Origin: Candidatus Gastranaerophilales bacterium
GTDB lineage: Bacteria; Bacillota; Clostridia; Lachnospirales; Lachnospiraceae
Assembly (NCBI GenBank): GCA_023663225.1
Contig: JAMPHU010000031.1
Span: 1-33,853 of the forward strand
DNA length: 33,853 nucleotides
Direction of reading: 5' to 3'
Within the stretch, counting starts at the first letter, position 1, and every line of letters starts with the position of its first letter. The translations under genes were made by a program, and so were the position numbers. Shown piece after piece: positions 4,721 through 19,242 of this stretch. The notes beneath the pieces were generated by a model. The model saw only the letters and a program-made list of their open reading frames with translations. It was not told the origin of the DNA and did no database searches.

Positions 4721-5443
4721 TTGGAAACAATGCAGGGTAAGAAGAATATGCTAAAAAAGGCTTTTACCGCGGCGTTCCCCAATACGATTCCCATTTTTGC
4801 CGGCTTCTGGTTCCTGGGACTGACCTATGGGATCTATATGAATGTCTCGGGATTTTCCTTTTGGTATCCCATGTTGATGAGCCTTACGATTTTTGCCGGT
4901 TCCATGGAGTTTGTGGCGGTGAATCTGTTGATGGGAGCTTTTAATCCCATCCAGGCGTTGACCATGACTTTGATGATCAATGCGAGACATTTGTTTTACG
5001 GCTTGTCCATGTTGGATCGGTATAAGGGGACGGGCCTCAAGAAATTTTATTTGATCTTTGGTATGTGTGACGAGAGTTTTTCGATCAATTACACCGCGGA
5101 CATTCCAGAGGGTGTGGACAAGGGATGGTTCATGTTCTTTGTGACGCTGTTGGATCATTTTTACTGGTTTTTCGGTTCGACTTTGGGGGGAATCTGCGGT
5201 TCTTTGATCCACTTTGACACGGAGGGACTGGATTTTGTGATGACGGCTATGTTTGTGGTGATCTTTTTGGAACAGTGGATGAAGGATAAGAATCATGTCA
5301 GCGCGGTGCTGGGATTGGTGATCTCCTTGGGATGCCTGATCGCGTTCGGCGCCGACGATTTTATCATACCGGCGATGGCAGTCATTTTGGCGGCGCTCAC
5401 ATTGATCAGAAAACCTTTGGAGAAAGGAGGAGAGACGGCATGA
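4721..5443 (+). CDS. azlC: AzlC family branched-chain amino acid exporter, large subunit
   Basis: Large membrane subunit of the AzlCD pair, which exports branched-chain amino acids (and toxic analogues) in Bacillus. The family pattern is clear: [20 protein letters not shown] at the N-terminus, [13 protein letters not shown], the conserved [10 protein letters not shown] block, and CDESF in the middle. Several hydrophobic segments fit a multi-pass inner-membrane protein of about 240 residues. The start is uncertain: TTG 4721 lies 4 nt after AAGGAG, ATG 4730 lies 13 nt after it. The stop overlaps the azlD start (ATGA), so the two are translationally coupled. Own promoter at 4665-4693. Confidence 0.92.
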
Positions 5444-5766
5444 CACTTACACAGCAGATTATTACGATAGCGATGGTGGTCTTGGGCACTATGGCCACCA
5501 GATTTCTACCCTTTATTCTGTTTCCGTCAGGGAAACCCACACCAAAGTATATTCAATATTTGGGCAAGGTGCTGCCGGGGGCGGTGTTCGGACTGTTGGT
5601 TATCTATTGCCTCAAAAACGTGAATCTCTTCTCCGGCAGTCACGGCATCCCGGAGGCCATTGCGATTGCCCTGGTGGCGGCGCTGCATTTGTGGAAACGG
5701 CAGATGCTTCTGTCCATCGCCGGAGGCACCATCTGCTATATGCTGCTGGTGCAGTTTGTGTTCTAA
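5440..5766 (+). CDS. azlD: AzlD family branched-chain amino acid exporter, small subunit
   Basis: 108 residues with about four hydrophobic helices, the partner of Azl[10 protein letters not shown] near residue 20 and the [16 protein letters not shown] segment are family hallmarks, as is a C-terminal [11 protein letters not shown]. Start ATG 5440 is fixed by AAAGGAGG at 5423-5430 and by the 4-nt overlap with the azlC stop. The stop TAA lies next to a structured repeat element that begins within the final codons, so that element forms the 3' untranslated region. Confidence 0.9.
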
Positions 5767-5936
5767 CAGTTCAGCCATGGAATGAATTACAAGCTGTGCG
5801 TGTGTGCTTGCACACAAAGCACAGACTGTAATTCATTCCATGAGCGGAGCGCCCGCGCATGAATAAAAGATGAGCCGCGAAAGCGGCGACGGATGCGAAG
5901 CAGCCGCTTTTATGAATGTGCGGGGCTGAACGGATA
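5764..5936 (+). repeat. structured dispersed repeat, copy A
   Basis: About 170 bp bounded by an inverted repeat (GTTCAGCC 5769-5776, GGCTGAAC 5924-5931). Inside, a perfect 16-bp stem (5776-5791 with 5827-5842) encloses a nested hairpin (GTGTGC TT GCACAC, flanked by CTGTGC/GCACAG). A second domain has CCGC-GAAA-GCGG and ATAAAAG/CTTTTAT pairing. A homologous element lies inverted at 19051-19224, and four base pairs of the main stem differ there on both strands, so the structure rather than the sequence is kept. It sits between azlD and the TPR gene and may work as an RNA 3' structure or as a small mobile palindrome. Confidence 0.8.
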
Positions 5937-5942
5937 TGTGGG

Positions 5943-5991
5943 CATGGAATGAATTACAAGCTGTGCGTGTGTGCTTGCACACAAAGCACAG
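5943..5991 (+). repeat. partial 49-bp duplicate of the repeat's first hairpin
   Basis: 49 bp identical to 5776-5824, covering the left arm of the main stem and the nested hairpin but not the right arm. It ends 3 bp before AGGAGG (5995-6000), so it lies directly in the leader of the TPR gene. It is most likely a partial copy or a tandem duplication remnant of copy A. Confidence 0.85.
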
Positions 5992-9902: not shown

Positions 9903-10062
9903 GAAAATTTAAAATTATTGTTATACCGTATTTTTTCTCTGTATATAACCAATACACTGTTCAACCGGTAGACAAAGAATAAAGGAAATCTAAAAAGTAT
10001 ATCCTCCTTGCAACTCGGATCATAACATTAGGTAAAGACCACTCGACATTGCCGGTTACTAA

Positions 10063-10200
10063 GCTCCGGTGGGGTAATTGTTCCCATGAGGAACCGTTGA
10101 AACACGTCGGCACTTAGCGAGGTGTTTTTCGAGCTTAGTGCCGCTACGTGTTTCATCGAGTGGAAACGTGTCCGAATGGGAACAATTACCCCACTGGAGC
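10063..10200. repeat. long imperfect palindrome (MITE-like or structured leader)
   Basis: The outer arms 10063-10087 and 10176-10200 match at 24 of 25 positions; inner arms 10098-10118 and 10133-10155 (around GGCACTTAGC / GCTTAGTGCC) also pair, closing on a 14-nt loop. CCACTCGA before the left arm also matches TCGAGTGG inside. There is no T-run directly after it. Minus-strand reading frames across it are by-products of the symmetry. It is most likely a non-autonomous element remnant. It lies 67 bp before the promoter of the BlaI-like gene. Confidence 0.75.
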
Positions 10201-10266
10201 GTAACATGCTGGTAAGCTGAAAAGGCTGAACCCTTTCCCAAAAAAATGAACCCCCCCAAAAACCGC

Positions 10267-16869: not shown

Positions 16870-16877
16870 AGAACTAT

Positions 16878-16980
16878 GAGCTGCGTTACTGGCGGAAAAG
16901 TGGGATCACCCACGGGGAGCGCAGCAGGCATGAGCCGACCGCCTGGGCATCGCTTATTGTGGTGCGCAGGTGTTTTTTTG
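16878..16980 (+). ncRNA. ZTP (pfl) riboswitch with overlapping terminator
   Basis: The pfl motif senses ZTP/ZMP, which accumulates when 10-formyl-tetrahydrofolate is short, and turns on purine and folate genes. P1: CTGCG 16881-16885 with CGCAG 16920-16924. P2: GTGGG 16900-16904 with CCCAC 16909-16913, followed by GGGGAGC. The conserved 3' domain GCCGACCGCCTGGGC lies at 16934-16948. Expression platform: CGCCTGGGCATC (16940-16951) pairs, with one mismatch, with GGTGCGCAGGTG (16961-16972), then seven T's. The terminator uses the conserved aptamer strand, so ligand binding and termination exclude each other. Confidence 0.92.
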
Positions 16981-17866: not shown

Positions 17867-19045
17867 ATGAAAGAGATGGAATTGAAATACGGATGTAACC
17901 CGAATCAAAAGCCTTCCAGGATCTACATGGAGGACGGCAGCGAGCTTCCTGTCACTGTGCTGAACGGGAAACCCGGATATATCAATTTTTTGGACGCTTT
18001 CAACGGTTGGCAGTTGGTGAAGGAGTTGAAGGAGGCCACCGGCCTGCCCGCAGCAGCTTCCTTTAAACATGTGTCTCCCGCGGGAGCGGCGGTAGGACTT
18101 CCTCTGGATGATACCCTGGCCAAGATCTATTGGGTGGATGATCTGGGAGAGCTGTCCCCTCTGGCATGTGCTTACGCCAGAGCCAGAGGAGCCGACAGAA
18201 TGTCCTCCTTTGGAGATTTTATCGCACTGTCCGATGTGTGCGACGCGGATACGGCCAGACTGATTAAGAGAGAGGTGTCCGACGGCTGTATCGCCCCCGG
18301 CTACACCGAGGAGGCGCTTGTGCTGTTAAAAGAAAAGAAAAAGGGTGGCTACAATGTCATCCAGATTGATCCCGCCTATCAGCCTGCCCCTGTGGAAAAA
18401 AAGCAAGTTTACGGTATCACCTTTGAGCAGGGCAGGAATGAGTTGAACGTAAATAGCGGTCTGCTGGACAATATCGTCACACAAAACAAAGAAATACCGA
18501 ACAGTGCGCTGATCGATATGAAGATCGCCCTGATCACGTTAAAATACACCCAGTCCAACTCTGTCTGTTATGTGAAGGACGGACAGGCCATCGGTATCGG
18601 CGCCGGACAACAGTCTCGAATCCACTGTACCCGTCTGGCGGGCAGCAAGGCGGATAATTGGTTTTTACGTCAGTCTCCACAGGTGATGGGGTTACAGTTT
18701 GTAGATGGACTGAGCAGAGCCGACAGAGATAATGCCATCGACGTCTACATGGGTGACGAGTACATGGATGTGCTGGCCGACGGCGTGTGGGAAAAGACTT
18801 TTAAGGTGAAACCGCCCATATTTACAAGAGAAGAGAAAAGAGCCTGGCTGAACCAGATGCAGAATGTGACATTGGGTTCGGATGCGTTCTTTCCTTTTTC
18901 CGACAATATTGAGAGGGCGCATAAGAGCGGCGTGAAATATATCGCTCAACCCGGCGGCTCCGTGCGGGACGACGCGGTGATAGCATGTTGCGACAAGTAT
19001 GATATGGTGATGGCCTTTACGGGAATCAGGCTGTTCCACCATTGA
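17867..19045 (+). CDS. AICAR formyltransferase, stand-alone
   Basis: 392 residues. Transfers formyl from 10-formyl-THF to AICAR (ZMP), giving FAICAR for the enzyme encoded just upstream. It corresponds to the C-terminal domain of PurH: KYGCNPNQKPSR at the start, the catalytic Lys67-His68 in FKHVSPAG, TQSNSVCY, IGIGAGQQSR, SDAFFPF and GGSVRDD, ending TGIRLFHH. ACGGAG precedes ATG 17867. The gap to the cyclohydrolase gene is 109 bp with no terminator, so both are likely under the ZTP riboswitch. That fits, because ZMP is this enzyme's substrate. Confidence 0.92.
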   Translation: MKEMELKYGCNPNQKPSRIYMEDGSELPVTVLNGKPGYINFLDAFNGWQLVKELKEATGLPAAASFKHVSPAGAAVGLPLDDTLAKIYWVDDLGELSPLACAYARARGADRMSSFGDFIALSDVCDADTARLIKREVSDGCIAPGYTEEALVLLKEKKKGGYNVIQIDPAYQPAPVEKKQVYGITFEQGRNELNVNSGLLDNIVTQNKEIPNSALIDMKIALITLKYTQSNSVCYVKDGQAIGIGAGQQSRIHCTRLAGSKADNWFLRQSPQVMGLQFVDGLSRADRDNAIDVYMGDEYMDVLADGVWEKTFKVKPPIFTREEKRAWLNQMQNVTLGSDAFFPFSDNIERAHKSGVKYIAQPGGSVRDDAVIACCDKYDMVMAFTGIRLFHH

Positions 19046-19050
19046 ACTGG

Positions 19051-19224
19051 TAACAGTTCGGCCCCTCCCATTCATAAAAGCGTCTGCTTCGCAGCCGTCG
19101 CCGCATCCGCGGCTCACCTTTTATTTCATGTGAGGGCGCTCCGCTCATGAAATGATATGGAATCAGTGCTTTGTGCGCAAGCGCCCACGCACAGCTTACA
19201 TATCATTTCATGGCCGAACTGTTA
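19051..19224 (-). repeat. structured dispersed repeat, copy B
   Basis: 174 bp bounded by a perfect 13-bp inverted repeat (TAACAGTTCGGCC 19051-19063; its complement 19212-19224). Read on the minus strand it aligns end to end with copy A at 5764-5936. The main stem is 14 bp (19199-19212 with 19146-19159) and differs from copy A at four paired positions where both partners changed. The CCGC/GCGG hairpin, AGCGGAGCGCCC and GCTTTTATGAATG blocks are shared. It begins 6 bp after the AICAR formyltransferase stop and ends just before the glnS promoter. Confidence 0.82.
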
Positions 19225-19242
19225 TATTCTAAAAAATAATGG

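Follow-up and report, generated by a model that had tools for sequence, protein, structure and literature searches.

What is the element of about 170 bp that occurs twice in one contig of a gut bacterium, and is it the DNA or an RNA made from it whose form is kept? The window, by which we mean the whole stretch of DNA analyzed (33,853 nucleotides), is contig C36 of a host genome of 3.29 Mb in 111 contigs that is 94.5% complete. A preliminary description of the window had reported a ~170-bp element repeated in inverted orientation, and this is indeed so, with copy A on the plus strand (5764-5936) and copy B on the minus strand (19051-19224) being 84% identical over 168 of the 173 query bases. 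The two copies and their parts are as follows.

5764..5936, plus strand: copy A, a structured non-autonomous DNA transposon (MITE), from sequence comparison, with a match of 36.2 bits (cut-off 48) to Clostridiales-1 RNA (RF01699)
Ends of copy A: left end CTAACAGTTCAGCC, with its first base at 5763; right end GGCTGAACGGATAT, degraded
5776..5842, plus strand: long hairpin (P2) of copy A with the apical sequence GUGCUUGCAC, from the predicted fold and covariation in P2
5852..5924, plus strand: second domain of copy A, P3 and a three-way junction (P4, P5), from the predicted fold and a 54-copy alignment
5764..5766, plus strand: TAA of the element, which is the stop codon of azlD (ORF 5332-5766)
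5943..5991, plus strand: half-hairpin duplicate beside copy A, 49 nt identical to 5776-5824
19050..19225, minus strand: copy B, a structured MITE, flanked by a purH-like gene and glnS
Ends of copy B: a 13-bp perfect terminal inverted repeat, one end having its outermost base altered
19146..19212, minus strand: long hairpin (P2) of copy B, from the predicted fold
19063..19136, minus strand: second domain of copy B (P3-P5), from the predicted fold and the 54-copy alignment

Both copies fold stably as predicted RNAs, with copy A at -90.7 kcal/mol (z -11.9) and copy B, in a 186-nt stretch, at -79.5 kcal/mol (z -6.1), and none of 200 shuffles equals either value. By eye, P3 of copy A contains a tandem G-A mismatch. 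When A and B are compared on a 63-pair structure, seven pairs are changed on both sides with pairing kept, and four of these seven are in the main stem, as had been described; two more double changes leave B unpaired, and since one of these falls within that stem, calling it perfectly paired in both copies slightly overstated the case. The inverted repeats said to bound the element are perfect over 13 bp in copy B but degraded at the right end of copy A. The position of both copies at the end of a gene holds as reported, with the TAA of copy A itself terminating azlD, and copy B (from 19050) lying antisense and 4 nt from the stop of the purH-like gene that ends at 19045. We note that the 5943-5991 duplicate, which corresponds to the 5′ half of the copy A hairpin placed 167 nt downstream, directly precedes the putative ribosome-binding site of the next gene; it matches RF01699 with 17.8 bits (E 0.12).

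The element is not confined to the window. The host genome contains 19 matches to copy A, seven of them near full length (A and B counted) and on six contigs; the other twelve include partial copies, fragments and palindrome self-matches. Copy B was matched in 16 of the 61 genus genomes searched, the host among them, and a covariance model of the host copies, the check that had been proposed for further copies, matched all 12 genomes to which it was applied, each of them preselected as an earlier match. Scanning named genomes for the pattern gave 72 stretches, which by title are from Lachnospiraceae (69), Bacillota (2) and Acetatifactor (1), and the carriers include Lachnospiraceae bacterium GAM79. 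Altogether, 102 covariance-model matches were reduced to the best 79 and, after removal of identical sequences, to 73 distinct copies from the genus and other Lachnospiraceae loci, host copies included; the 23 lower-scoring matches that were excluded comprise fragments and opposite-strand matches among others. A single intra-contig duplication of one element followed by gene conversion would suit two inverted copies sharing a contig, but it is refuted by seven near-full copies on six host contigs and by the many in other species, and we give it virtually no chance.

The boundaries of these copies are those of a transposon. They are bounded by GTAACAGTTCAGCC and its complement GGCTGAACTGTTAC, and terminal inverted repeats of the GTAACAGTTCRGCC type are present across the family. 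With up to two mismatches the terminal 14-mer occurs 155 times in the host genome versus 53 times for the reversed pattern, and in seven relatives the exact 14-mer occurs 125 times versus none for the reversed pattern. Nine of the 73 distinct copies lack a recognisable right end, leaving 64 evaluable for target duplications; 8-bp duplications are perfect in 16 of these and match at six or more of the eight positions in 29, with both L249 entries, which had a false right end, scored as failures. In a cross-pair control joining left and right flanks of different copies, 0.02% are perfect and 1.8% match at six or more positions, such that about one of 64 copies is expected to reach six of eight by chance. 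Copies A and B each have one altered end, and no 8-bp duplication is recognisable at either (three of eight positions identical at A, one of eight at B).

Comparison of the copy B site among relatives provides evidence of a second type. A match to glnS is present in 131 of 138 genomes, from which thirty loci, that of the host included, were taken, and nine relatives have a purH-like gene and glnS adjacent within 300 nt; L394, with its purH match 1.3 kb off, was excluded, and the rest have no purH match in the stretch. By eye, seven of the nine lack the element; of the other two, one retains an end remnant and the second carries a different insertion. A base-exact empty site for copy B was not obtained because the nearest relative is only 82% identical in glnS. 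The different insertion (L401 in G124) has the same end type and, like the end remnant (L395 in G122), is in the purH-like/glnS spacer, which is perhaps a recurrent insertion spot. The check for empty sites and target duplications thus came out in part, with seven of nine sites empty at B and duplications across the family, but none visible at A or B themselves.

Among the options offered in the preliminary description, a small palindromic mobile element is therefore the one that the inverted ends, the 8-bp duplications and the empty copy B sites bear out, and we conclude that the ~175-bp element is a non-autonomous DNA transposon (MITE) that occurs many times over in this group of gut bacteria. 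REP and BIME elements are moved by RAYT, a Y1 transposase, with a RAYT gene and without target duplication; we rejected such a system for the window family, which makes 8-bp duplications.

Several other sequences share these ends or parts of the element. A different hairpin-rich element ending in AAAAGGCTGAAC is present in the window at about 10043-10232 and resembles same-ended mosaics elsewhere in the genome. At L050-L057 and L059-L061 (host contigs C40, C64, C69, C76, C84, C44, C47, C55, C78, C88 and C31) these ends flank mosaics built from large palindromes that are interchangeable; the host mosaics are 271-532 bp, one in C76 has a perfect 8-bp duplication, and several host contigs begin or end within such elements. 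In G001 there are seven exact end pairs (in C21, C25, C42, C98, C131, C173 and C252), each of 140 bp, which make up a further family of short, uniform elements that share these ends.

Which transposase moves the element is a separate question. GTAA-type ends together with 8-bp repeats presumably indicate the IS66 family. GAM79 (G006) carries two 1.8-kb PF03050 elements with GTAACTATTCAG ends and perfect 8-bp repeats, and the one PF03050 ORF read is 485 aa. Related transposases are present in five of 138 genus genomes at E up to 1e-40, G006 included, and in the four others of these five there are GTAA[CT]T[AG]TTCAG ends beside the transposases, with just one such end seen in G003 and in G106. 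The MITE ends are identical to ISBst12-type ends at 9-12 of 14 positions (10 of 12 in G106, where 12 were read). Among 30 genus IS66 loci a GTAA-type inverted pair is present only at L120 and L127, and the others end differently. Passages of PMC12898284 report that ISDge4, a member of the ISBst12 group, transposes, and give its ends as GTGACTACTCAGCA and GTAACTGCTCAGCA and its 8-bp direct repeat as CCTCGATG.

In the host genome, at 94.5% completeness, nothing matches PF03050 at E 0.001, and among seven relatives no autonomous element with exact MITE ends facing inward 1-5 kb apart was seen by eye. Among the roughly 100 of the 155 host end matches that were listed there is no transposon-sized pair except one of 979 bp (C71:20122-21100), which contains mosaic hairpins and a short ORF; and at a three-copy GAM79 element (L267-L269) the ORFs beside one copy resemble, by eye, chromosomal genes. 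The MITE was rejected as an IS66/ISBst12 member in its own right, being at ~175 bp too short for a transposase and lying in a genome without PF03050. ISBst12-group elements such as ISDge4 share with it the GTAAC...TTCAG-like ends and the 8-bp direct repeats, whereas the exact MITE ends have no ISBst12 counterpart among those found. Since the host lacks PF03050 and an exact-ended autonomous element was not found, we infer the mobilizer from the similar ends and 8-bp repeats, which point to a transposase of the ISBst12 group. A DDE transposase of this group (IS66 family) supplied in trans would act on the 14-bp MITE ends, and insertion would duplicate 8 bp of the target.

The structure was followed across the family. 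For the alignment we used the 54 of the 73 copies that are 165-180 nt long and without an inserted GAGGAGG module; these were aligned with MAFFT, which is blind to structure, and the 63-pair structure was drawn from the alignment and the folds. Pairing of the two ends gives a closing stem, which encloses the long hairpin and a domain with a three-way junction; conserved unpaired positions surround the junction. The structure is formed in 94.5% of pair cells across the 54 copies, so that the fold stands under the further copies. Double changes affect 33 of the 63 pairs (254 cells), compared with an average of 17 pairs (64 cells) in shuffles and 14-20 pairs (29-76 cells) in slid controls, and 14 of the 17 pairs of the long stem have them; these covariation counts, like the strand counts below, represent non-independent events because the copies are related. 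The fold of the element is thus kept through many double changes.

Template switching perfects quasi-palindromes, and the element may be an ordinary MITE whose palindromes are maintained by DNA-level processes alone, with no RNA function; it is very palindromic and its end stem is paired too. However, the two strands are not equivalent. Among the 59 copies (of the 73) used for the strand test, the strand that the Rfam model calls is the more stable in 53, and it is so in 17 of 18 assemblies, as well as in 17 of 19 copies of a second subfamily (A5) and in 30 of 30 true Clostridiales-1 RNAs, although conserved loops that they share may cause much of this. Counting once per pair and assembly, G-U cells outnumber A-C cells by 74 to 39 (p 0.0013) in the window family, but no G-U excess was found in the 19 copies of A5, where an RNAalifold table has 8 G-U versus 11 A-C cells and leaves the long hairpin mostly outside the structure. 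A strand preference is not expected from template switching, and together with the G-U excess and the conserved unpaired junction positions it makes maintenance at the DNA level alone, to our minds, distinctly unlikely. It is the greater stability of one strand, in 53 of 59 copies, that points to RNA rather than DNA, and the RNA form of the element seems to keep a fixed fold. The conserved RNA structure suggested in the preliminary description is accordingly backed both by covariation and by strand asymmetry.

There are variants on this architecture. At six named MAG loci (L199, L205, L209, L220, L242 and L184) the second domain contains an additional hairpin module, with GAGGAGGGG-type sequence replacing part of P3, and five of the six have perfect 8-bp duplications. 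In G018, at least L276-L283 are three-way-junction modules without MITE ends, L282 being in tandem, and the module may occur on its own. Two GAM79 (G006) loci, L272 and L273, are weak model matches (E about 6e-5 to 8e-5), and the sequence just downstream of them resembles the beginning of a 23S rRNA gene.

The fold has a probable relative among catalogued RNAs. At Rfam gathering thresholds the window contains only a ZMP-ZTP riboswitch (16875-16955, 62.3 bits), about 0.9 kb upstream of an AICARFT-type purine gene (17867-19045), and at that level the earlier remark that the element belongs to no named family is true; below the threshold, however, both copies match RF01699, for which the gathering score is 48. 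Copy A scores 36.2 bits (E 1.4e-6 for 321 nt), with register kept over the closing stem and the long hairpin and the inner domain mostly unaligned, and copy B scores 24.3 bits (E 0.002), out of register. Relatives with window-family ends match at 6 of 15 loci at E up to 1, with three below 1e-4 and a best score of 39.8 bits (L143), and 7 of 18 further loci match at E up to 0.01; all window-type copies that were scored fall below 48. In the reverse direction, the window-family model (R2) recovers 1 of 30 true RF01699 members (E 0.12), and a bridging model of the second subfamily (R3) recovers two of 30, weakly, below E 0.02; neither matches any of 30 control loci. R3 matches both window copies (E 4e-11 and 7e-10), aided by the MITE ends they have in common. 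In a permissive search (E up to 1) the copies matched nothing but RF01699, a single thermometer model and miRNA models, and at gathering no mobile-element RNA of Rfam, be it IS605 omega RNA/HEARO or another, has a match in the window.

Clostridiales-1 RNA and the window family are on the same strand and of similar length, and by eye they share the closing stem, the long hairpin with an apical GCUUGC, the CGCC linker and a stem with a CAU-GA/GA-AUG tandem mismatch. They differ in the interior, which forms a three-way junction in the window family, whereas RF01699 has one inner hairpin and an additional hairpin on the 3′ side. Because the RF01699 scores are below the cut-off and partly out of register, we regard the window family as probably a distant homologue of Clostridiales-1 RNA, and not as a member.

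Another reading is that the element is a small RNA acting in trans, the type under which RF01699 is catalogued, and that it spread through capture by a transposon. Rfam types RF01699 as 'Gene; sRNA', and in those parts of PMC2864571 that deal with it, Clostridiales-1 is listed, since 2010, as a candidate small RNA and has the table entry y n n (probably RNA, not cis-regulatory); the lack of orientation bias relative to genes described below would also fit. However, many divergent copies per genome with gain or loss among relatives suit a parasite better than a single conserved regulator, and neither A nor B contains a promoter-like site, and we consider a captured small RNA unlikely.

Clostridiales-1 RNA appears itself to sit in mobile elements of Lachnospiraceae. 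Of 299 Lachnospiraceae genomes sampled, 129 contain RF01699 above threshold, at up to at least nine places per genome (the best nine being scored). We inspected 50 loci, the best 30 and 20 chosen mostly from complete genomes. In 32 of these a second end, CTTTTGACCCCAACATCA (up to four mismatches), is present past the Rfam 3′ boundary, and at the other 18 an outer end was not recognised. The resulting elements are 184-212 bp, with left ends of the TGATRCCAGGGTCAAAAGG type. Exact 5-bp direct repeats flank 17 of the 32 (11 of 22 in one set, 6 of 10 in another), compared with 1.2 in each of the two sets in cross-pair controls that include the AT-rich flanks; 6-bp repeats are found at 3 of 22 and 2 of 10. 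The two groups are thus alike in being short elements with inverted ends and target duplications, but the window family has other ends and 8-bp rather than 5-bp duplications, so that RNA of one kind would sit in elements of two kinds, and transposon ends of two types may carry a single RNA architecture. More end types are hinted at by a GAM79 copy (L240, L275) whose closing stem is of a third type.

A broader, speculative reading is that the Clostridiales-1 superfamily is a selfish RNA domain tied to no single transposase, with its closing stem adopting the ends of whichever DDE transposase is available (the ISBst12 type with 8 bp, another type with 5 bp, and perhaps more), and with the same bases under selection both for the RNA fold and as transposon end. 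The out-of-register match of copy B lowers its odds, and we hold it as possible but doubtful.

Where do the copies lie relative to genes, and what might the RNA do? The suggestion of a conserved RNA structure at mRNA 3′ ends, as a cis-acting 3′-end or terminator element, has in its favor that both window copies adjoin a stop codon and that 18 of the 22 copies co-directional with their upstream gene are within -22 to +23 nt of its stop; copy A also has one terminator-like site (5890-5874), though on the opposite strand. However, for the 40 copies between genes in the same direction (among 57 of the 73 copies evaluable for orientation) 17 are sense and 23 antisense (p 0.43, with crude ORF calling), and the suggested 3′-UTR role finds no backing there. 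No promoter-like site is present inside copies A and B, nor a terminator-like site on the RNA strand of either. Open frames of at least 100 codons end at the TAA of the element at 9 of 61 left ends and 4 of 48 right ends, not above the 16% at random points, and the supply of a stop codon as an insertion preference was rejected on these counts. It is the lack of orientation bias and of promoter-like and RNA-strand terminator-like sites that disfavors a dedicated 3′-end element, which we regard as very improbable.

The explanation that we prefer as a whole, and consider quite probable, is a MITE mobilized by an ISBst12-group transposase and carrying a structured RNA. The element's RNA would presumably be transcribed. 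Any transcript crossing a copy would fold that copy into a closed and stable module, and insertions folded away in this manner, between genes or at gene ends, would do little harm and so persist. That the RNA works in cis in this way is a model to which we give a little under even weight, and the equal frequency of sense and antisense copies speaks against it; next after it comes an RNA that acts in trans for the benefit of element or host, which is possible though rather unlikely.

The element, then, is a MITE whose RNA fold appears to be under selection, and a catalogued RNA family is probably its relative. A limited search of the open-access literature found no report of Clostridiales-1 as a mobile element, and in the passages of the main text of PMC2864571 that we consulted its mobility is not mentioned, 'transpos' occurring only in the name of another motif. 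Open-access searches for a MITE in Lachnospiraceae, an ISBst12-linked MITE and an IS66 MITE with 8 bp gave no relevant report; the titles and excerpts on IS66 and MITEs together concern other bacteria, and one paper may describe an IS66-type MITE. If the Clostridiales-1 family rides a mobile element, its copy number, conservation and covariation are to be reread, and other orphan RNA families are worth checking for inverted ends and target duplications. The large natural set of copies makes selection on the RNA fold separable from that on the transposon ends, and the function of a non-autonomous element's RNA becomes testable.

There are two groups of known elements with which this family can be compared. 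ERIC, Nezha and CIR are bacterial MITEs or palindromic repeats that are short, non-coding, mostly intergenic and foldable with inverted ends, and the window family is like them in all of these respects; it departs from them in showing covariation and a strand bias, signs that an RNA fold is being selected, and in that a curated RNA family has the same habit. The retrozymes are comparable in being non-autonomous mobile elements built around a structured RNA; as portrayed in PMC4918200, they are plant retrotransposons with hammerhead ribozymes, whereas the window, in which no catalogued ribozyme reaches the Rfam thresholds, has a DNA transposon with target duplications.
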